Shown piece after piece: positions 3,967-20,657 of a DNA stretch of 20,657 nt; position 1 is the first letter of the stretch, and every line of letters starts with the position of its first letter. The notes under the pieces are model-generated. The model searched no databases and was not told the DNA's origin. It saw nothing but the letters and a program-made list of their open reading frames with translations. This DNA is from a virus: the IMG/VR virus record IMGVR_UViG_3300023179_000609, positions 1 to 20,657 of that record; one strand, 5' to 3'. The position numbers and the translations under genes are program-made.

Positions 3967-4494
3967 ATGGCTAACATAAACAATCTTTATGTTGCTGCTG
4001 GTTCAAAAGTTACTTTCGGTGGTGTTGATTTAGGTCACACTGTTGATGGAGCTGAAATTGAAATAGCAAGAGAATTTACTGATGTTACAACTGATATATA
4101 TGGAAGCACTCCAATTGATAAAGTATTATCAGGTCAAACAGCAACAGTTAAATTAAAACTTGCTGAAATTACTCCGGGTGTCCTTGCTTACGCTATACCA
4201 GAAGCTGATTATGATGTTGGAAGTACTTCTGACCATCTTCACTTCGGTACTAAGTCAGGATTTAGCCTACGAAGTGTGGCATATCAATTAGATATTGTTC
4301 CACAGGGTAAAAACACAGATGGTAAGAAAACTATCACTTTCTTCAAGGCTGTTTCTACAGATAATGTAAAAGTCGCTTACAAAATTGATGAACAATCAGT
4401 TTATGAGGTTACTTTCACTGCTCTAGTAGATGAGAGTCGTGCTGCAACTGATGGTCGATTACTCGGTCGTGTTGGTCCAGTAGCTATTTCGTAA
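3967..4494 (+). CDS. Tail-tube-like (major tail) protein
   Basis: The 175-residue beta-rich protein reads like a siphovirus tail tube subunit: VTFGGVDLGHTVDGAEIEI near the start, then EFTDVTTDIYGSTPIDKVL and GQTATVKLKLAEITPG (about 37-72), a strand-rich middle, and YEVTFTALVDESR before a short glycine-rich end. The pattern of testing a 'TTD-YG-TP' strand followed by a 'VKLKLAE' strand is one I associate with tail tube proteins. It stands between the capsid gene and the head-tail adaptor gene, whereas tube genes usually follow the tail terminator gene. A strong terminator follows at once, so capsid and tube proteins form one expression unit. A capsid accessory protein is the main alternative. 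Confidence 0.68.
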   Translation: MANINNLYVAAGSKVTFGGVDLGHTVDGAEIEIAREFTDVTTDIYGSTPIDKVLSGQTATVKLKLAEITPGVLAYAIPEADYDVGSTSDHLHFGTKSGFSLRSVAYQLDIVPQGKNTDGKKTITFFKAVSTDNVKVAYKIDEQSVYEVTFTALVDESRAATDGRLLGRVGPVAIS

Positions 4495-5497: not shown

Positions 5498-5853
5498 ATG
5501 TAAAAGTTGTTGATAACTCTTTATTATTTACTAGCAAGCTTAAAAATGTTTTAAGTACTGCTCTTAATGAATCTTCAAGAGATATATTAATTTTGGCAAG
5601 AAACAGAGCACCATATAAACAAGGTGGATTAAGATTAAATTCTGATGCTACACAACAAAGTCTTTTAAATTATAGAGTTAATTATTATATAGAATATGCA
5701 AGGTTTCAAGAATTCGGTGGTGATAATAAAAGAGTAGTTAGGCATTATACTACTTCAGGAACAGGTAAAAATTATTTAAATGGTGCAGGGTCAATTATTT
5801 TTAAGAAGATGGATGGAACAATAAGAAAACATTGTAATAGGATTGGAATATAA
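5494..5853 (+). CDS. Neck / tail-completion protein, HK97 gp10-like
   Basis: The 119-residue protein starts at GTG (5494), overlapping the preceding stop by four bases (GTGA); the nearby ATG at 5498 is out of frame. Family features are a helical N-terminal third (SSRDILILARNRAPYKQGGL), in which Arg-Ala-Pro is followed by a Gly-rich turn as in gp10-like proteins, and then a strand with YYIEYARFQEFGG, the usual 'Y-A-x-x-x-E-F-G' signature. These proteins act at the head-tail joint or finish tail assembly. The C-terminus is basic and short. Coupled translation from the stopper gene is likely. Confidence 0.72.
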   Translation: MNVKVVDNSLLFTSKLKNVLSTALNESSRDILILARNRAPYKQGGLRLNSDATQQSLLNYRVNYYIEYARFQEFGGDNKRVVRHYTTSGTGKNYLNGAGSIIFKKMDGTIRKHCNRIGI

Positions 5854-6239
5854 TGGATATTGCAAACATTGTAGCTTTATACTTACAAACCAATAACTTT
5901 GGTACTGTAGGAAGTAATATTTTTATAGGACAAATGCCTGAGAACACTAATGGTATCTGGATTGAAAGAATAGGTGGCACTTTAAATAATTATGTACCTA
6001 TGGAAGAAACTGTACTTAATATTTATTCAAAGAATACTAAAGCTTCTTCAGCAGTAACATTATTAGAAAATATTAAACGATTTATTCACAGAATGCATAA
6101 CACCACACAAAACGCAAGTTATATTTACACTTTTTTGGTAGTTGGTGATATTGAAGATATGGCGAGGGATTCTCAATATGAGAAAATTTATAAATTAACA
6201 TTGCAAGTAGTCCATAGAGATACTGCTATAATAAGCTAA
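5853..6239 (+). CDS. Tail terminator protein (minor capsid/tail end family)
   Basis: The 128-residue alpha/beta protein fits the tail terminator group that caps the tail tube and joins it to the head. An N-terminal helix (IANIVALYLQ) is followed by NIFIGQMPENTNGIWIERIGG, a middle helix with LLENIKRFIHRM, and final strands that include YIYTFLVVGDIEDMARDSQ and KIYKLTLQVVHR. Its start overlaps the preceding stop as TAATG. It precedes the tail assembly chaperones, although the tube gene that normally lies between them is upstream of 4494 instead. Confidence 0.75.
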   Translation: MDIANIVALYLQTNNFGTVGSNIFIGQMPENTNGIWIERIGGTLNNYVPMEETVLNIYSKNTKASSAVTLLENIKRFIHRMHNTTQNASYIYTFLVVGDIEDMARDSQYEKIYKLTLQVVHRDTAIIS

Positions 6240-6249
6240 AGGAGATAAT

Positions 6250-6603
6250 ATGGCTTTAACTATACAAGACTTACAACCAAAAGGTTTTAAAGTAGAAATC
6301 AAAGGATTAATACTAGACTGTAAAGCACCCAGACTTTCACATACGCTTGTTTTAAGCAAGGTAGGTGAGATGTTTAATAATCTAGATAAGCTAGAGAGAG
6401 AAGACATTGTAAAGGCTGAGAAAGACTTTGACTGGGTAGTTGCTGAGTTAATACCTGAATTAAAAGGTATTGAATTGGGTATTCAAGATGTACTTGAAAT
6501 AGTTACACAAATTATGGAACATGTCGCCCCTGAAGAAAATAAAGAACTTGAGGAAAAGGGGGTTAAGTTTGACTCTGACCCAAAAGTAGAGAAGATTGGT
6601 TAA
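6250..6603 (+). CDS. Tail assembly chaperone, G-like
   Basis: The 117-residue protein is mostly helical and acidic, and lies directly before the tape measure cluster where lambda gpG-type chaperones are found. These proteins coat the tape measure protein while the tube is built. It ends with a TAATG overlap with the next gene. Near its 3' end the codons ...GAC CCA AAA GTA... contain the slippery heptamer C_CCA_AAA (6579-6585). A -1 slip there would replace the last five residues with the product of the downstream frame, giving a fusion of about 201 residues. A good AAGGAG precedes the ATG. Confidence 0.78.
   Translation: MALTIQDLQPKGFKVEIKGLILDCKAPRLSHTLVLSKVGEMFNNLDKLEREDIVKAEKDFDWVVAELIPELKGIELGIQDVLEIVTQIMEHVAPEENKELEEKGVKFDSDPKVEKIG
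6579..6585 (+). other. Programmed -1 ribosomal frameshift site (C_CCA_AAA)
   Basis: The heptamer CCCAAAA lies in the required X_XXY_YYZ phase relative to the G-like gene. After a -1 slip the next codons are AGT AGA GAA GAT TGG TTA ATG, entering the downstream chaperone frame with no stop. The stops at 6570 and 6576 in that frame lie just before the heptamer, so the frame is open only from this site onward. That is what a real site would need. Confidence 0.8.
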
Positions 6604-6854
6604 TGATGTACGCAGAGTTTTTAAGGTTTTATAATTATACAGCTGATGAAGCTCTTGCTGAATATGCAAAAAGATTTTTTGCTCTATGCAGTATGATGTA
6701 CAGAATACAAGCTAAAGATTCTTTAAATGACATTACAGTTATATCTGCCGGCACAAATGGTGGTCAAGAAGCTAAAAGAATTGTTGATGATTACAGAAAT
6801 CAATTTAAAGGTAATCATGGAATACTTCAAGAAGTAAGGACTATAAAGGGTTAA
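6603..6854 (+). CDS. Second tail assembly chaperone, T-part of a G-T fusion
   Basis: This helical, 83-residue frame (FLRFYNYTADEALAEYAKRF and following) lies between the G-like gene and the tape measure gene, the position of lambda's T frame. It is probably made mainly as the C-terminal part of a frameshift fusion: 112 residues of the G-like protein followed by 89 residues read from 6585. Its own ATG overlaps the G-like stop (TAATG, with a second ATG right behind), so separate translation by re-initiation is also possible. In lambda the G-T fusion recruits the tail tube subunit to the tape measure protein. The fusion is inferred from the slippery site and open frame. Confidence 0.72.
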   Translation: MMYAEFLRFYNYTADEALAEYAKRFFALCSMMYRIQAKDSLNDITVISAGTNGGQEAKRIVDDYRNQFKGNHGILQEVRTIKG

Positions 6855-6857
6855 ATT

Positions 6858-8837
6858 ATGTCTACAAATGTGGGTAGTATCTATTATGACTTAAGTCTGA
6901 ATACAGCTAGGTTTGAGATGGCTTTAGCAAGTATTAAAACTCAAATGAGTGGTATGAATGCTCATGTAAATACATCAGGTAATACAATTAAAAATTTTGA
7001 ATCCTCTGGTGGTTCAAGTTTTATGGCATTAGCAGGTAAAGCTGGATTAGTTGGTGCTGCAATAGCAGGATTTGGTTATGCAGTCAAAAATACAGTTGGT
7101 CCATTAATAAATATAGGTTCCGAAGCTCAAAACTTAAGAACTAATTTAGATGTTTTAACAGGTTCTACCCAAAAAGGTCAAGAGATGTATAAAAAATTAG
7201 TAGATTTTGCTGCTAAAACACCTTTTGAAACCACTGAACTTGTTTCTGCTACTCAACAAATGTTATCTTTTGGAATTACTACCGATAAAGTTATGCCATA
7301 TTTGAAATCTATTGGTGATGTATCAATGGGAAATAAAGATAAACTTGCTGGTTTAACTTACGCATTTTCTCAGGTTCAATCCACTGGTAGATTAATGGGT
7401 CAAGACCTTTTGCAAATGATTAATAATGGTTTTAATCCATTAGAAGAAATTAGTCGTAAAACAGGTAAAAGTATGGCTACATTAAAAGATGAAATGTCAC
7501 AGGGCAAAATATCTGCTCAAGATGTAGCAGATGCTTTTCAAAGTGCAACTGAAAAAGGTGGCAGGTTTTATGGTGGTATGGAAAAAGGTTCACAAACTTT
7601 ATCTGGTAGAATGTCTACTTTGAAAGATAACGCTAAAACTGCTATAAGAGCAGTATTAGGTATTGATGAAGAAGGCAATGTAAAAGCAGGTGGTTTATTT
7701 GACAGATTGAGCAAAGGAATGGAAAAACTCTTTCCGATTATGGAGAAAATTGCTAAAAATGCCGGACCAGCAGTATCAAATATTTTAAAAGCTATTGATG
7801 AAATATTAAGAAAATTACATCCAGTATTTGTTATTTTAGGAGAAAAAATAAAAGAAGCTACAAAAGAAGTAACAAAATTTTGGAATGAAAACAAATCTTG
7901 GTTGATACCTTTATTAAAAATTATTGGTGGAATAATTATTGGATTAGTTGTAGTAGCTATTGCTTCTTTAGTAGAATCAATAAGAATTTTATTTAATGCA
8001 ATGAATACGATAAGAACTGCAATTGTCTGGGTAATTGAAAAATTTAATGAATTTGCTGATTGGGTAGGTAGAGTTTGGAATAGTATAAAAAGTTACTTTA
8101 GTAATGCAATAAATACATTAGTTCAAGCTGGAAAAGATTTAGTGCAAGGATTTATAAATGGTTTAACTTCTATGTTTAGTAATATTTGGAATGCTCTTAC
8201 AACAGTATTTTCAGCAATTGGAAGATTCTTTAGTGGAGTTTGGGATTGGCTAAAATGGGCAGGTGAGTCTTTAGTAAGAGGTTTTGTTAATGGAGTAAAA
8301 AATGTTGCAGGGCATATATGGGATGGTTTATCAAGTACTTTTTCTTCTATTGGTAGATTTTTCAATGGTGTATGGAGTTGGTTAACTTGGGCAGGTGAAT
8401 CATTAGTCAATGGATTTGTTCAGGGAATTAAAAATATGTTTTGGGCTCCATATAATGCTTTAAGAGATGTTTTAAATAAAGCTAAAAGTTTATTTCCTAG
8501 AAGTCCTGCTAAAGAAGGTCCATTTAGTGGAAAGGGCTGGACTTTATATTCAGGTCAATCTTTAGTACAAGGATTTGCTGATGGTATAGAAAATATGTCA
8601 GATTTACCGCAGATTGCTTTAAATAAAGTTATGAGTCCATTAAGTGCTAACATTAATAATCCAATAGCTTTAAATGGTAATACACCTTCCATAAGCAACT
8701 CGAACCAAGTTAATAATCAATCTGTTAATAATATATATGGCAATATTTCACTTGGTGATTCTGGTGCAGTTAATACATTCTTTGACCAGTTAAATAGAAA
8801 CCAAGAACTTGCTGGAATGGGATTAGGAGTATTATGA
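6858..8837 (+). CDS. Tail tape measure protein
   Basis: The 659-residue protein sets tail length; at the usual 0.15 nm per residue this gives roughly 100 nm. The conserved tape measure domain spans about 85-250, with TQKGQEMYKKLVDFAAKTPFE, a middle segment SIGDVSMGNKDKLAGL, and QDLLQMINNGFNPLEEIS. Hydrophobic stretches occur near 56-75 and 350-372 (IIGGIIIGLVVVAIASLV), typical of proteins that reach the host membrane during DNA entry. A tandem 44-residue repeat follows from 424. A SPAKEGPFSGKGW motif near 540 and LVQGFADGIENM are common near tape measure C-termini. The end overlaps the distal tail gene as ATGA. Confidence 0.93.
   Translation: MSTNVGSIYYDLSLNTARFEMALASIKTQMSGMNAHVNTSGNTIKNFESSGGSSFMALAGKAGLVGAAIAGFGYAVKNTVGPLINIGSEAQNLRTNLDVLTGSTQKGQEMYKKLVDFAAKTPFETTELVSATQQMLSFGITTDKVMPYLKSIGDVSMGNKDKLAGLTYAFSQVQSTGRLMGQDLLQMINNGFNPLEEISRKTGKSMATLKDEMSQGKISAQDVADAFQSATEKGGRFYGGMEKGSQTLSGRMSTLKDNAKTAIRAVLGIDEEGNVKAGGLFDRLSKGMEKLFPIMEKIAKNAGPAVSNILKAIDEILRKLHPVFVILGEKIKEATKEVTKFWNENKSWLIPLLKIIGGIIIGLVVVAIASLVESIRILFNAMNTIRTAIVWVIEKFNEFADWVGRVWNSIKSYFSNAINTLVQAGKDLVQGFINGLTSMFSNIWNALTTVFSAIGRFFSGVWDWLKWAGESLVRGFVNGVKNVAGHIWDGLSSTFSSIGRFFNGVWSWLTWAGESLVNGFVQGIKNMFWAPYNALRDVLNKAKSLFPRSPAKEGPFSGKGWTLYSGQSLVQGFADGIENMSDLPQIALNKVMSPLSANINNPIALNGNTPSISNSNQVNNQSVNNIYGNISLGDSGAVNTFFDQLNRNQELAGMGLGVL
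8127..8522 (+). repeat. Tandem 132-base (44-residue) repeats inside the tape measure gene
   Basis: Two well-matched units (8127-8258 and 8259-8390) and a third that matches only in its first half (8391-8522) follow without gaps. Each begins AG(K/E)(D/S)LV, continues GF(I/V)(N/Q)G, and the first two end IGRFF-GVW-WL-W. They encode residues 424-467, 468-511 and 512-555. Unit gain or loss would shift tail length by about 6-7 nm per copy. Confidence 0.85.
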
Positions 8838-11936: not shown

Positions 11937-12482
11937 ATGGGTAAAATTTCACAACTTCCACCAGATTCATCACCCAGTGCAGATGACTACACAGTTACAG
12001 TAGATAGCAGTACCAATCAAACAAAAAAAGTACGATTATCTGATTTAGTGACTTCAGTTGTTAATCAAATGTCTTCAACTGCTATAACAAAAAGAACTTT
12101 ACTTTTTGATAACGCTGGTGGAATTGATACTCAAACTATTGGTACAACTTTTACAGACACTACTTGGTGGACCGAGAAAACTTTTTCAACTACTGGTGGA
12201 GATATAGTTATTCATGTAGCTTTAACTTATTTTGCTAGTAATGCTAATAATTGTTATTTTAGGTTAGTCATTGATGGTTCTACCTATTCACCAAGTTCAA
12301 CTGGTTGGGCTCAATACAATAATGAAACTTCTAGTCACCGATTAACTGCTAGAACTTTATTATTAACTGGTTTATCTTCTGGCTCACATACAATTAAATT
12401 ACAAATGAGAGCTACTTCAGGAAATGTTTATAAAGACACAAATGATTATTTAAACCTTTTATTGGTAGAATATATTCATTAA
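11937..12482 (+). CDS. Receptor-binding/tail fibre protein, copy 1 of 3
   Basis: Residues 1-40 (GKISQLPPDSSPSADDYTVT, then KKVRLSDL) form a module common at the start of phage tail fibre and baseplate proteins, probably the attachment to the tail. The C-terminal domain (about 60-181) is beta-rich and closes with ...GNVYKDTNDYLNLLLVEYIH. It shares most of its landmarks with copy 2 (TKRTL, SSH-L, HTIKLQMRA, SGNV--DTNDY-N). I infer a trimeric receptor-binding head. The AGGAG site overlaps the stop of the hub gene. No catalytic motif is visible, and the receptor is unknown. Confidence 0.75.
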   Translation: MGKISQLPPDSSPSADDYTVTVDSSTNQTKKVRLSDLVTSVVNQMSSTAITKRTLLFDNAGGIDTQTIGTTFTDTTWWTEKTFSTTGGDIVIHVALTYFASNANNCYFRLVIDGSTYSPSSTGWAQYNNETSSHRLTARTLLLTGLSSGSHTIKLQMRATSGNVYKDTNDYLNLLLVEYIH

Positions 12483-12483
12483 A

Positions 12484-13041
12484 ATGGTTAAGATAACTAC
12501 ATTAAATCAAGATATATTGCCAACTGGTGATGATTATACAATCACTTTAGATGTTGGTTCTAGTTCGACAAAAAAAGTAAAACTTTCAGATTTAACTTCT
12601 TTAATAGTAAATACTATACCTAAAAATACAATTACTAAAAGAACATTAGTTATGAATGAAATTGCTACTACAGACCAGACAATTACTACAACATTTCAAA
12701 ATGTAGCAAATTGGACAGGAACTTTTACATCTTATGGTGGTACAGTTTATTTTCACACGAATTTTACTATGTGGAGACAGACTGTGGTTGACATTAATAT
12801 AATTAGATTAAGAATTGATGATTTATATGTTACACCACCTGATATTTATGGTTATGGTACTGGTGTTTCTATGCCAATAAATGAATTAAGTAGTCATAAA
12901 TTATTTAGTACTATATTCACTATTGATAATTTGCCAGCTGGATTTCATACAGTTAAAATGCAAGCGAGAACTAATAGTGGTAATGTCCGTTTTGATACTA
13001 ATGATTATATAAATATGGTAGCAATAGAATATGTACATTAA
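12484..13041 (+). CDS. Receptor-binding/tail fibre protein, copy 2 of 3
   Basis: This 185-residue paralogue keeps the N-terminal module (VKITTLNQDILPTGDDYTIT, then KKVKLSDL) and the same C-terminal domain outline as copy 1 (TKRTLVM, SSHKL, FHTVKMQARTNSGNV, DTNDYINMVAIEYVH). Between these landmarks the loops differ greatly, as expected for surfaces selected to bind different receptors. It starts two bases after the preceding stop with no clear ribosome binding site, so it is probably translated by re-initiation or coupling. Confidence 0.75.
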   Translation: MVKITTLNQDILPTGDDYTITLDVGSSSTKKVKLSDLTSLIVNTIPKNTITKRTLVMNEIATTDQTITTTFQNVANWTGTFTSYGGTVYFHTNFTMWRQTVVDINIIRLRIDDLYVTPPDIYGYGTGVSMPINELSSHKLFSTIFTIDNLPAGFHTVKMQARTNSGNVRFDTNDYINMVAIEYVH

Positions 13042-13050
13042 GGAGTAATT

Positions 13051-13545
13051 ATGCCAAAAATATCAAATCTACCACCAGACAGTTTACCAACATTAGACGA
13101 CTACATTATCGTCAATGATGCAACATCAAATTCAACAAAAAAAGTCACACTTAGTGCTTTATTTTCAAATCAATTAATAGGTAGCACAGGTTTAGCAAAT
13201 AATGCAGTCACTTCATCAAAAATGTCTCCTACTAAAGCATATGATGGTTCTTGGCAATATTATGATTTTGGGGCTTTTAGGTTTTATAGATATTCATATG
13301 CTGTAAATATATCTGTTACAAATGGTCAAAGAAATTCGCCAGGAACACTCCCAGTACCAAGTACAGTATCAGATTATACACAATGGAGATTATATTTAAG
13401 CTGGGAAGGTAATTATTCTGGTCACGCTGTTGTTGGTGCTGAAGCACCTACCTCAAGTGGATGGGTAATTAACATAGGAAATCAATATTCAGGAAGTGCT
13501 TTGACATTTAATGGAAACATTAGATGTTTATTGATACCAATCTAG
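13051..13545 (+). CDS. Receptor-binding/tail fibre protein, copy 3 of 3, different C-terminal domain
   Basis: The first 40 residues (PKISNLPPDSLPTLDDYIIV, then KKVTLSAL) repeat the module of copies 1 and 2. The rest is different: LANNAVTSSKMSPT, a short motif frequent in phage fibres, followed by a compact beta domain (about 70-164) rich in Tyr, Trp and Gly. The pattern suggests one anchor combined with different receptor-binding heads. It has its own AAGGAG site. The stop is followed directly by the promoter-like motif of the lysis module. Confidence 0.72.
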   Translation: MPKISNLPPDSLPTLDDYIIVNDATSNSTKKVTLSALFSNQLIGSTGLANNAVTSSKMSPTKAYDGSWQYYDFGAFRFYRYSYAVNISVTNGQRNSPGTLPVPSTVSDYTQWRLYLSWEGNYSGHAVVGAEAPTSSGWVINIGNQYSGSALTFNGNIRCLLIPI

Positions 13546-15082: not shown

Positions 15083-16471
15083 GTGCATAATAGAAAATGG
15101 GTAGGCGATAGATTATGGTACTTGCTTAACTTACCTAAAGAAGATTTAAAAAATTTGTTTCCAAATCATCAATGGGAATCTTTAAAATCTAAACGAAAAC
15201 TATATAGAAGATATATAAAGGAACAAAAAATTATGCCACCTAAACGACCAAAAGAATATTACGAAGGAGAATCACCAGATGATATTCGCCAAAGACTTGA
15301 ACAACCATTAGGTGAAACTGTTGTAAGCCAAGTTATAGATGAAGAAACACGACAATTACTTCATAAGAAACTAGACCAAGTTATAGATGATACAAATATT
15401 AACCCAAGAATGGTCAAAGGTTTTAGGTTATCTAGCTGGGATGGGCTCACCAAAAATCAAGATGGTGAAGCAGAAATACATAAGCTCGCAGGTATTCAGC
15501 TAATCGCAGAAGCTAAAGATTTCGAGCCTAAATGGACAGAAATTACACAGATAGATTATCAGCCAGTTCCTATAGTTCAGGAAACAAAAAAATATCCCAA
15601 AGGTCAGCACACAGCTTTTATTCTTCCTGATACACAAATTGGTTATAGAAAGCTTGCAAATAATGAGATACATTCTTTTCATGATGAACAGGCTATATCT
15701 GCAGCATTATCAGTGTTAAAAGATGTTAGACCTGACCAAGTTATATTACTTGGAGATTTACTAGACCTTCCTGCCTTTGGAAGATATGAACAAACTGAAG
15801 ACTACGCTCATACAACTAATATGGCTTTACAATATGCCTGCAACTTACTAGACACTGTTCGTTCTCTGGTAGGTAAGAAAGCAGAAATTATTATTTTAGA
15901 AGGTAATCACGAAAGACGAATAGAGAAACAAAATAAATCTAATATGCTTGCTAATTTTTCTCTCAGGCAAGAAGGTGATGTTTCTAGCTTTCCAATTCTT
16001 TCAGTTACACATTTACTTAATTTAGAAAAGCGTAATGTGAAATATGTTGAAGGTTATCCAGCTGGAAAATTTTGGCTTAATGAAAGACTACAAGTTATTC
16101 ATGGTCATAGAGTTAATAGCTCAGGCTCAACTGCTGCTAAAATAGCTAAAGAAGAAAATGTATCAACTATACTTGGACATATACATAGAATTGAACAACA
16201 TATGGTAACTAGTAATGTATATAATGGTGGAAAAACTAACGCTGCTTATTCAGCCGGATGTTTATGTAAAATTGATGGTTCAGTTCCAAGTGCCAAAGGT
16301 TCTACAAAATTAGATGGTAGTGCTGTTAAAAACTACGAAAACTGGCAACAAGGTTTTGGTGTAGTTAGTTATTCAGAAGGCAATGCTCCATTTACATATG
16401 AACAAGGTTACATTGATACATTTAATAATTATGAAACAACTTATCGTGGAAAGGTATATCAAATTAAATGA
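15083..16471 (+). CDS. Calcineurin-like metallophosphoesterase with N-terminal DNA-binding-like segment
   Basis: The 462-residue protein carries all metal-binding motifs of the calcineurin-like fold: LPDTQIG (Asp183, with Gln185 in the usual His place), LGDLLD (Asp225, Asp228), GNHERR (Asn275-His276), IHGHR (His340) and GHIHR (His366, His368). I recall that phage relatives also carry the DxQ variant. The first 50 residues (LNLPKEDLKNLFPNHQWESL, then a basic KSKRKLYRRY) look like a small helix-turn-helix often found in these proteins. The substrate is probably nucleic acid or a nucleotide, but this is not visible. It starts at GTG with a poor ribosome binding site and ends in an ATGA overlap. 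Confidence 0.85.
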   Translation: MHNRKWVGDRLWYLLNLPKEDLKNLFPNHQWESLKSKRKLYRRYIKEQKIMPPKRPKEYYEGESPDDIRQRLEQPLGETVVSQVIDEETRQLLHKKLDQVIDDTNINPRMVKGFRLSSWDGLTKNQDGEAEIHKLAGIQLIAEAKDFEPKWTEITQIDYQPVPIVQETKKYPKGQHTAFILPDTQIGYRKLANNEIHSFHDEQAISAALSVLKDVRPDQVILLGDLLDLPAFGRYEQTEDYAHTTNMALQYACNLLDTVRSLVGKKAEIIILEGNHERRIEKQNKSNMLANFSLRQEGDVSSFPILSVTHLLNLEKRNVKYVEGYPAGKFWLNERLQVIHGHRVNSSGSTAAKIAKEENVSTILGHIHRIEQHMVTSNVYNGGKTNAAYSAGCLCKIDGSVPSAKGSTKLDGSAVKNYENWQQGFGVVSYSEGNAPFTYEQGYIDTFNNYETTYRGKVYQIK

Positions 16472-18296: not shown

Positions 18297-18761
18297 TTAA
18301 TTGTTTCTTATGTATTGAAATACATATTTTTCTGACCATTTATTGTTGTTATACTTTTTGCAACATTTACCACAAGCATTTGTAGATTTTTTATTTGCTT
18401 TACTTTGATAACCACAACTGTTACATATAAGTATATATTTAGCAGGTGGTTGAACAATTGTATTTGGGTCATAAGTTCTTTCACCACTACATCCGATAGA
18501 TTTTGCAACTGCTTTCCATATATGGTTATGATGACAACCTCTTGTTAAAGCGTGAGCTATTTCATGTAATAGTGTTTCCTTAACTACTTCTTCAGTATTT
18601 AATTCAGTTAATTTTTCTGATAAAGAAATTGTTCTATCAGTATAGTTACATTGTCCAAATCTTCTGACTGACCTATCAAATTTAAATGTCCATCCAGTTT
18701 CTAACAAATCGTGTTCATCTAATAATTTGACTGCTAGTCCATAAGCTTTTGTTGTATTCAT
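18297..18761 (-). CDS. SprT-like zinc metalloprotease with C-terminal zinc ribbon
   Basis: The 154-residue protein has the SprT-like core: a helix-strand start (KAYGLAVKLLDEHDL, then GWTFKFDRSVRRFG), and LLHEIAHAL with zinc ligands His66 and His70 and catalytic Glu67, followed by HHNHIWKAVAKSIG, which supplies the third ligand (His80 or a neighbour). A zinc ribbon follows with Cys113-Cys116 and Cys130-Cys133. Eukaryotic relatives (Spartan) cut proteins crosslinked to DNA; phage versions are common but little studied. A GAAAGGA site lies 7 bases before the ATG. The neighbours suggest an early or middle gene linked to DNA metabolism. Confidence 0.87.
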   Translation of the reverse strand: MNTTKAYGLAVKLLDEHDLLETGWTFKFDRSVRRFGQCNYTDRTISLSEKLTELNTEEVVKETLLHEIAHALTRGCHHNHIWKAVAKSIGCSGERTYDPNTIVQPPAKYILICNSCGYQSKANKKSTNACGKCCKKYNNNKWSEKYVFQYIRNN

Positions 18762-18843
18762 TTTGTAATCCTTTCTACTTAATTACTCTTATATTGTCTC
18801 TCATTACATTAATAAAGACAACAATTCTATATGGAAATATTCA
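18762..18843 (-). promoter_or_regulatory. Leader of the SprT gene with inverted repeat
   Basis: This 82-base gap is the longest between minus-strand genes here. TTGTCT (18794-18799) and AGACAA (18816-18821) form a 6-base inverted repeat around 16 bases. On the minus strand TTGTCT and TATAAG resemble promoter boxes but are 22 bases apart, which is too far. I see no clear promoter. Confidence 0.25.
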
Positions 18844-19215
18844 TTATTCTTTTTCAATTATATCGACATATACTGCTGACCAAGATGTACCATAATGAGT
18901 AATACCCCAAACATATTCGTCTAAAACATAACTATAAAAAATTAATTCATTAGTTATATTTTGAAGATATTTTGCATCTGCTGGTGTTATTAAATACCAT
19001 TGAAAAATATCTATATCATATTTTTGATGTTCAAGACCTCCCCAAATATTGCAATCTTCATTTTCGCAGGAACAATTATATAAATTGCCATTAATTTTAT
19101 TATCTCTAATATCATTATCAAGTTCAGAAACTCTATTAAATAAATATATATTATCTAATCTATTTGCCAATTCTTCATAAGAAATATTTTCTACAATTTT
19201 TTTAGTTTTATTCAT
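18844..19215 (-). CDS. Phage protein of unknown function (123 aa)
   Basis: The 123 residues show a helical, acidic N-terminal third (ISYEELANRLDNIYLFNRVS), a Cys-containing middle (NCSCENEDCNIWGG, about 47-60) that could bind a metal, and a final part rich in Tyr, Trp and acidic residues. I do not recognise a family. It has a clear AGGAG site inside the end of its upstream neighbour and is directly adjacent to it, so it is almost certainly a real gene of the leftward operon. Confidence 0.62.
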   Translation of the reverse strand: MNKTKKIVENISYEELANRLDNIYLFNRVSELDNDIRDNKINGNLYNCSCENEDCNIWGGLEHQKYDIDIFQWYLITPADAKYLQNITNELIFYSYVLDEYVWGITHYGTSWSAVYVDIIEKE

Positions 19216-19518
19216 TTAATTATTCTCCTTGTTTTTTAATTTAGTAGATTTAATTTTTTCTTCTAATTGATAGAATTTATAAGCATTTTCTAAACTTCCT
19301 TTAGAACCTTTTTTTACTTGTTTATAAGATGGTATATAGTTACCCCAATAATCTTCTTTTGGTTCGTCAGCAAGTATACAAGCTCCACTTTCTAAAGCAT
19401 CCATAGCTCTTCTACCGTAATGACCTTCCATTAACCAACACTGTCCAGAATCTATTAATGATTGTAGACTTCCATATGGATTGTCCATTATTTCTTTATG
19501 TATAGTTGAATAGTTCAT
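19216..19518 (-). CDS. Small phage protein of unknown function (100 aa)
   Basis: The 100 residues carry recognisable but unassigned phrases: WLMEGHYGRRAMDALESGAC and ADEPKEDYWGNYIPSYKQV, followed by KKGSKGSLENAYKFY. I recall similar small proteins in other phages, with the 'DY(W/Y)G...PS...KGSKGS' outline and no known function. A GGAAAGGA site precedes the ATG by about 7 bases, and the gene starts one base after the stop of its upstream neighbour. The C-terminus is Lys/Asn-rich. Confidence 0.62.
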   Translation of the reverse strand: MNYSTIHKEIMDNPYGSLQSLIDSGQCWLMEGHYGRRAMDALESGACILADEPKEDYWGNYIPSYKQVKKGSKGSLENAYKFYQLEEKIKSTKLKNKENN

Positions 19519-19519
19519 T

Positions 19520-19795
19520 CTAATTCCTTTCCAATATATCTAACTTACTAATTGGGATTTCATATATAGTTATGTTTGGATTGTTCTTTAAAGCTTTAAT
19601 TGGATATGTTTTAGCATTATCCCCACTAATATAAAATGTACGAGGATAAATTCTATCGCCATAACTATTTTTTGCTAATATTTCTATCTCATTATGTTGA
19701 CCAATTTTATATGTTGCCAAACCAACTTTTCTGCCATCCCATATTGGCATTTTAATTGTAAATTTTTGACAAGGTGTTGTTCTACTTAAAATCAT
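19520..19795 (-). CDS. Small phage protein of unknown function (91 aa), coupled to the exonuclease
   Basis: The ATG overlaps the exonuclease stop by ATGA, and its AAGGAG site lies in the exonuclease coding end. The protein is mostly beta (FTIKMPIWDGRKVGLATYKI, then IEILAKNSYGDRIYPRTFYI) with a basic character. The closeness to the exonuclease suggests a role in recombination or replication, but nothing in the sequence names it. Confidence 0.6.
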   Translation of the reverse strand: MILSRTTPCQKFTIKMPIWDGRKVGLATYKIGQHNEIEILAKNSYGDRIYPRTFYISGDNAKTYPIKALKNNPNITIYEIPISKLDILERN

Positions 19796-20310
19796 AACTT
19801 ACTCCTTATGTTATCAATTATTTTTTTATCTCTTTTAACTTCTACTATTTTTATTGCATCTTCAATACGAACATCTGGATTAAAAAATACTACATCTGTC
19901 GAATCTAAATCTGTAATTAACATACCGAAATGTATTTGTGCTAGTATTTCAAAAGGCACTTCGTTAGAACATTCATAATGACGCTCACGATTAAAACATT
20001 TTACTTCTATTAATTTATTACCACATATACCATCTGGTGAATATCCAGCACCAATGTACTCACTATTAGTTACAAAACCAACTCGCCAAACATCTACATC
20101 ATTAATTTTTTCATATATTTCAATCGCCTGAGGTTCAAGTATATGACCTCGCTGAGTGTAATAGTTACCTGCAAATGTTTTATTGGCTCTATTTAATGCT
20201 TCTTTTTTACCAAATGTAAGTAAGTCTTTAGCAGATGTTCCTGTAATTTTTCCAGTACGCAAGGTAAGCCATTCCTGACTACCCTGCTTAACATTATGAA
20301 TTTTAATCAT
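19792..20310 (-). CDS. YqaJ/lambda-type recombination exonuclease
   Basis: I prefer the ATG at 20310 (172 residues, IKIHNVKQGSQEWLTLRTGK) to the TTG at 20325, since it matches the usual family start. Motifs of the YqaJ viral recombinase nuclease are in order: GSQEWLTLRTGKITGTSA (10-27), RGHILEPQAIEIYE with Glu59, GYSPDGI with Asp93, LIEVKCF with Glu102 and Lys104, and AQIHFGM with Gln125. Such enzymes resect double-stranded ends 5' to 3' and hand the single strand to an annealing protein. That partner is probably the gene directly upstream. The frame overlaps both neighbours by a few bases. Confidence 0.87.
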   Translation of the reverse strand: MIKIHNVKQGSQEWLTLRTGKITGTSAKDLLTFGKKEALNRANKTFAGNYYTQRGHILEPQAIEIYEKINDVDVWRVGFVTNSEYIGAGYSPDGICGNKLIEVKCFNRERHYECSNEVPFEILAQIHFGMLITDLDSTDVVFFNPDVRIEDAIKIVEVKRDKKIIDNIRSKL

Positions 20311-20657
20311 TGAATACTTCAACAATTCTATCTACTTCTTCTGGAGTGAATTTTACATCTTGAAGTTTAACTTCAGACATTTCTTCAGCTGGTGTTGCTT
20401 CATAACCAGCCATCTTCATTAACCAGCCAAAAGCATTTCTATATGCTTTACCAACAGCTCTAGTTTGAGCCATACTAGCAATTGCATATTCATCAAAATA
20501 TTGCTTACCTTTTTCTTTATTAGTACAGATTGCTATACCACAACCTACAACTTCGTTGTTTTCTAATCTTACTAGATTAACTTTTGCTCTATATTTAACT
20601 ATGTTGTCTGTAGATAAATCCTTTAACGACTCAACCACAGGAAAACTCTCAAAACTC
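20303..20657 (-). CDS. Probable phage single-strand annealing/recombination protein (start lies right of the window)
   Basis: The frame is open to the right edge, so only the C-terminal 118 or so residues are present; the GTG at 20638 is internal. The sequence VRLENNEVVGCGIAICTNKE, then a stretch with YAIASMAQTRAVGKAYRNAF and GWLMKMAGYEATPAEEM, matches a motif I associate with phage recombination proteins that accompany exonucleases. The last 25 residues are acidic and end EEVDRIVEVFND. Location directly upstream of the YqaJ-type exonuclease fits an exonuclease-annealing pair. The family cannot be named safely without the N-terminus. Confidence 0.6.
   Translation of the reverse strand, partial: SFESFPVVESLKDLSTDNIVKYRAKVNLVRLENNEVVGCGIAICTNKEKGKQYFDEYAIASMAQTRAVGKAYRNAFGWLMKMAGYEATPAEEMSEVKLQDVKFTPEEVDRIVEVFND

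Follow-up and report, generated by a model that had tools for sequence, protein, structure and literature searches.

A conserved slippery site probably directs −1 frameshifting between two tail chaperone-like genes in a group of uncultivated phages

The stretch of viral DNA analysed here (the window: 20,657 nucleotides, positions 1 to 20,657 of IMG/VR record IMGVR_UViG_3300023179_000609) carries two small overlapping genes, G and T, in the order tail terminator, G, T, tape measure (Table 1). T lies in the −1 frame relative to G, which raises the question of whether T is made as a separate protein or is reached by ribosomes that slip near the end of G. We estimate a probability of about 95% that the locus contains a functional programmed −1 ribosomal frameshift signal of the lambda G/GT kind, the slip itself being what we infer from the sequence signal, its conservation and the selection acting on the −1 reading of the overlap.

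A sequence-only reading of this DNA had proposed an in-phase C_CCA_AAA near the end of the G-like gene, and the heptamer is indeed read directly there. Counted in codons from position 6250, CCCAAAA divides as C CCA AAA, which is the correct X_XXY_YYZ phase. The position near the stop stands, but the distance of 18 bases given for it is measured from the start of the AAA codon; from the end of the heptamer to the TAA there are 15 bases. The two −1 stops that had been placed before the heptamer, at 6570 and 6576, are both present together with a third, and the −1 frame is open from the heptamer through the 83-residue T frame, as had been claimed. T consists of 83 residues when counted from its own ATG and contributes 89 residues to a fusion when counted from 6585, and the computed length of the predicted G-T fusion (112 + 89 = 201 residues) agrees with the earlier figure.

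Table 1. Features of the G-T region and its flanking genes (coordinates are those of the window).
Feature	Coordinates	Strand	Remarks
Tail terminator gene, directly upstream of G	5853..6239	+	Pfam Phage_tail_terminator_6, 2e-10; same in repeat search
G-like tail assembly chaperone gene (0 frame)	6250..6603	+	117-aa ORF; TAA stop 6601-6603; AAAGGAG ribosome site
Shine-Dalgarno-like AGGGGGT	6557..6563	+	G run ends 16 nt before heptamer; probable upstream stimulator
Closed −1 frame	6564..6578	+	Stops TAA 6564-6566, TGA 6570-6572, TGA 6576-6578, read directly
−1 slippery heptamer C_CCA_AAA	6579..6585	+	Read directly; in phase
T-like open −1 frame	6579..6854	+	Stop TAA 6852-6854; own ATG 6603
Doubly read 15 nt, heptamer to G stop	6586..6600	+	−1 frame SREDW; substitutions mainly synonymous in −1 frame
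Tape measure protein gene, directly downstream of T	6858..8837	+	PHROG tape measure families to 6e-57; Pfam TMP_3 4e-31

In-phase X_XXY_YYZ occurs at 38 of 5285 in-phase positions (0.7%) of the window's plus-strand genes, among which CCCAAAA is found in phase a single time, and the chance of an in-phase heptamer in an overlap this short is approximately 6%. At this chance level the heptamer of a single sequence is suggestive, and it is the comparative evidence that makes the case strong. A second in-phase heptamer, A_AAG_GGG (6555-6561), overlaps the Shine-Dalgarno-like run. It was rejected as a slip site, since a slip there would immediately meet the −1 stop TAA at 6564 and the heptamer is absent in relatives such as L016.

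A direct search with G found a single close relative among viral contigs and no homologue among GenBank phages, and a genome scan with the G-T alignment gave no match. Homologues were gathered via the major capsid protein, which yielded 35 related loci, 22 of them with both G and T. L041 is identical to L026 in the G-T region and was dropped, leaving a first set of 21 loci plus the window. Further relatives were obtained by a capsid profile search, after which G and T profiles located the pair in eight previously unused loci (the held-out set). When genomes were scanned with the capsid profile, the only hit was a metagenome-assembled bin (L051), and no named host was found. The tape measure protein was discarded as a route to relatives, as the phages it matched share that domain only and have other genes upstream. 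The locus set includes the near-duplicates L015/L017, L033/L034/L035 and L053/L054. L011 (PP511318.1, Dulem virus 31) has a genome of 35.8 kb that includes genes for a tail sheath and a tape measure protein; its record assigns it to the Microviridae, evidently in error.

Homologues of the window's G are 31-69% identical to it. In all 22 sequences of the first set, window included, T is in the −1 frame and a canonical heptamer is present in phase: C_CCA_AAA in 19, T_TTA_AAA in two and A_AAA_AAA in one. All eight held-out loci have C_CCA_AAA in phase. Among them are L076 and L080, in which the capsid protein shares just 35-37% identity with that of the window. A canonical in-phase heptamer is therefore found in 30/30 loci with the pair, and the 29 loci other than the window (26 with C_CCA_AAA, two with T_TTA_AAA and one with A_AAA_AAA) bear out the slippery site without exception. 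Where the heptamer is replaced, it is only by another canonical one (T_TTA_AAA in L025 and L037, A_AAA_AAA in L043). Depending on the locus, the heptamer lies 3 to 42 nt from the G stop, while it remains linked to its upstream context. Judged from these alignments, the putative −1 slip signal is evolutionarily conserved in this uncultivated phage group.

A heptamer of this kind could arise as a chance combination of codons that is kept only for the residues Asp-Pro-Lys, and K112 is in fact invariant and D-P-K common in the alignment. The choice of codons argues against this. Codon identity (the share of sequence pairs with the same codon where the amino acid is shared, not corrected for phylogeny) is 100% at D110, P111 and K112 (106, 121 and 171 pairs sharing the amino acid, respectively), compared to 47% over G residues 1-108, and these are the three highest of the 62 G columns with enough data. 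Despite the uncorrected phylogeny, a background of 47% indicates that synonymous sites are far diverged. D110 is always GAC, a codon used for only approximately 20% of the window's Asp residues; likewise, P111 is always CCA and K112 always AAA. Furthermore, the residues differ in L025, L037 and L043, and the slippery heptamer is still there. We regard retention for the residues alone as scarcely credible.

The stretch between the heptamer and the G stop provides a second line of evidence. It is doubly read only if ribosomes slip, because no −1 start codon precedes the ATG at 6603. In 12 loci that share this architecture, the overlap shows 170 pairwise differences, of which 137 are synonymous in the −1 frame and 71 in the 0 frame. 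For comparison, 81 and 114 of the 473 possible non-stop changes would be synonymous in the −1 and the 0 frame, respectively. These pairwise counts are non-independent, and a parsimony count is sounder. On a tree built without the overlap stretch, 17 changes were counted in the overlap, and 9 of them affect the middle base of a 0-frame codon, equivalent to the last base of a −1 codon; in the remainder of G, the middle base accounts for 77 of 545 changes (p = 3e-4). The result is weaker with strictly the same 10 taxa (p = 0.03). Since changes between the heptamer and the ATG are mostly silent in the −1 frame, this stretch appears to be translated, and the substitution pattern supports protein-level selection on its −1 reading.

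The overlap also has features that might allow T to be made without a slip. T could be solely a separate protein produced by translational coupling, with termination at TAA 6601 and restart at the overlapping ATG 6603. The TAATG overlap and a GAGAAG 9 nt before the ATG would suit such a restart, as would the ATG that 20/22 first-set loci have 2-5 nt past the beginning of the G stop codon. However, coupling leaves unexplained both the codon invariance of the heptamer and the selection on the −1 frame upstream of the ATG. The ATG at 6603 is also required by the conserved W-L-M of the fusion, and the spacing of the upstream G run is kept relative to the heptamer, not to the ATG. In L038, the first ATG is 71 nt downstream, inside conserved T sequence, with only a TTG nearer. 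In L076 and L080, no potential start codon (ATG, GTG or TTG) precedes the conserved T sequence, so that T would be made there only as a fusion and not by re-initiation. Re-initiation alone cannot explain these start-codon-less members or the varying distance from heptamer to stop, and we consider it very improbable as the only source of T.

Somewhat less improbable, though still unlikely, is a combination in which frameshifting gives the fusion and re-initiation at ATG 6603 adds some free T. Most members have features of re-initiation alongside the frameshift signal, with an ATG that overlaps the G stop or lies no more than 5 nt from it. Members without a T start codon argue that free T is not generally needed, however, and the fusion's own residues can account for the ATG at 6603. 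Frameshifting into T, with the fusion as its product, is thus the reading that we prefer.

Upstream of the heptamer, the Shine-Dalgarno-like G run is a candidate stimulator of the slip. At G residue 104, 18 of 20 sequences use GGG for Gly, versus 1 of 71 at the other Gly columns of G, and the share of GGG among Gly codons in these loci is 2-15%. In one case (L030) residue 104 is GGA, and the sequence there is AAGGAGT. With the common bacterial anti-Shine-Dalgarno sequence assumed, GGGG(G)T is the best match to it within gene G, both in the window and in most relatives; many relatives have a stronger match here than at the gene's own ribosome site. GGNGG and AGGKG upstream of a slippery site are listed as proven stimulators, with a stimulatory interval of 6-17 nt (PMC4066793), and a review gives a range of 9-14 nt for Shine-Dalgarno stimulation of −1 slips (PMC5009743). 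The spacing of the G run, 14-16 nt, is at the edge of the first interval and at or past the end of the second, so stimulation of the slip by the conserved run is no more than plausible. Base pairing between the G run and the CCC in the heptamer is disfavoured, because L025 and L037 keep GGGGG while their site is TTTAAAA.

Downstream of the heptamer, no conserved RNA structure was found in these loci. Folding z-scores, calculated with shuffles that preserve base composition only and not dinucleotides, scatter around zero and are strong only in L016 and L038, and a downstream stem-loop was rejected as a general stimulator. The strong predicted hairpin of L038 (8373-8432; dG -19.2, z -3.5) lies just after the heptamer and is a possible substitute stimulator; this locus has neither the G run nor a nearby T ATG. 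L043 has a run of eight A. A Shine-Dalgarno-like sequence is found at 9-13 nt in members with altered distance (L039, L051, L072 and L076), and L038, L043, L053/L054 and L080 are without a good one. It is possible, at a little less than even odds, that frameshifting in this group is driven mainly by a G run that pairs with rRNA at the unusually long spacing of 14-16 nt, without downstream structure, and that members lacking the run use substitutes, namely the Shine-Dalgarno-like sequence at 9-13 nt in the four loci above, the L038 hairpin and the eight A of L043. If any part of the signal adds something new, it is the conserved G run upstream.

Neither G nor T of the window matched Pfam or PHROG families at E below 0.001, and G had no sequence match in Pfam or PDB. 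Five of the 22 G members touch PHROG tail assembly chaperone family 1442, weakly (best E 0.005), and T likewise has only weak sequence matches among known chaperone families. The best viral fold matches of an AlphaFold model of G (pLDDT 79) include several annotated tail assembly chaperones. The model aligns with the HK97 chaperone 2OB9 (Z 5.4 over 87 residues) and with YqbN 3KLU (Z 3.5 over 84 residues), at 9-10% identity in each case. The modelled fold thus resembles that of the HK97 tail assembly chaperone, which is supportive at Z values below the level that proves a relationship. Overall, the apparent likeness of G to known tail chaperones is weak by sequence and moderate by predicted fold. 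Two further entries high in the fold list, 3FGX and 5IR0, are uncharacterised proteins and were set aside. A fold search with T gave unspecific helical matches only. The parallel with lambda G/GT drawn in the sequence-only reading gains support from the conserved heptamer, the selection on the −1 frame, the gene order and the HK97-like predicted fold.

With frameshifting as the preferred reading, most ribosomes would read gene G to the stop at 6601, giving the putative 117-residue chaperone. An inferred minority on CCA AAA (6580-6585) would move back one base, with the two tRNAs re-pairing with CCC AAA, and would stay in the −1 frame to make the 201-residue fusion. The Shine-Dalgarno-like G run probably pairs with 16S rRNA and would thereby stimulate the slip. 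By analogy with lambda, the tape measure protein would be coated by many copies of G and few of GT, with tail tube subunits recruited through T. C_CCA_AAA is among the motifs that shift above 0.10% without stimulators in E. coli (PMC4066793). Long-tailed phages widely conserve a low-level −1 frameshift that joins two chaperones encoded ahead of the tape measure gene (PMC5009743), and PMC3483164 cites Xu et al. 2004 for this trait. Frameshift efficiencies of 6-7% have been measured for HK97-like chaperone genes (PMC3711429).

The tape measure gene has a conserved start. Its first 20-45 residues (MSTxVGSIHYDLxLDTSxFD; window 6858-6995) are conserved in nearly all relatives, and the rest of the protein is often weakly similar among them; the chaperones could make contact at this conserved N-terminus. 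In L026 (8704-9135) and L041 (3870-4301), T is followed directly by a 143-aa ORF, in the place that the start of the tape measure gene occupies in other members. Judged by eye, this ORF looks like a homing-endonuclease-type gene. Elsewhere in the window, 3967-4494 has PHROG Ig-domain and major tail protein matches and adjoins the capsid gene. Three tandem ORFs at 11937-13545 share a similar N-terminus (ISxLPPDSxPxxDDY...TKKVxLSDL), differ in their C-terminal parts and have no Pfam match; they are perhaps modular tail fibre or receptor-binding proteins. A calcineurin-like phosphoesterase (15083-16471; Pfam Metallophos 1e-7) follows the lysis genes on the late-gene strand, and SprT-like and YqaJ-type recombinase genes on the minus strand (18297-20638) mark an early or replication block.

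These data suggest a likely function for two otherwise unmatched small proteins of a group for which no cultured member was found in our searches. They also correct the annotation, as gene callers would give two separate genes. The 30 loci differ in their slippery sites, upstream stimulators and overlap lengths, and as a set they should be useful for testing what bacterial −1 signals require.

The gene pair very probably belongs to the lambda G/GT kind, a well-known kind, found here in an uncultivated phage group; the tail assembly chaperones of lambda and their counterparts were reportedly described by Levin (1993) and by Xu (2004, 2013). As in lambda, two overlapping genes stand directly before the tape measure gene, with the −1 frame used by the second, and shortly before the first stop there is a canonical heptamer in phase that is conserved among relatives. 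The slippery site of lambda is G_GGA_AAG, whereas here it is C_CCA_AAA. The pair also differs from lambda G/GT in its conserved upstream Shine-Dalgarno-like G run, in showing no clear sequence similarity, and in the placement of the candidate tail tube gene (3967-4494), which is near the capsid gene with four genes between it and G, rather than directly upstream of G. The HK97 chaperone and YqbN resemble G in predicted fold and differ from it in sequence, at the low identities given above. Compared to the E. coli dnaX and IS-element −1 signals, the spacing of 14-16 nt is longer than usual and a conserved downstream hairpin is absent; what those signals share with the one described here is a Shine-Dalgarno-like sequence upstream of a slippery heptamer.
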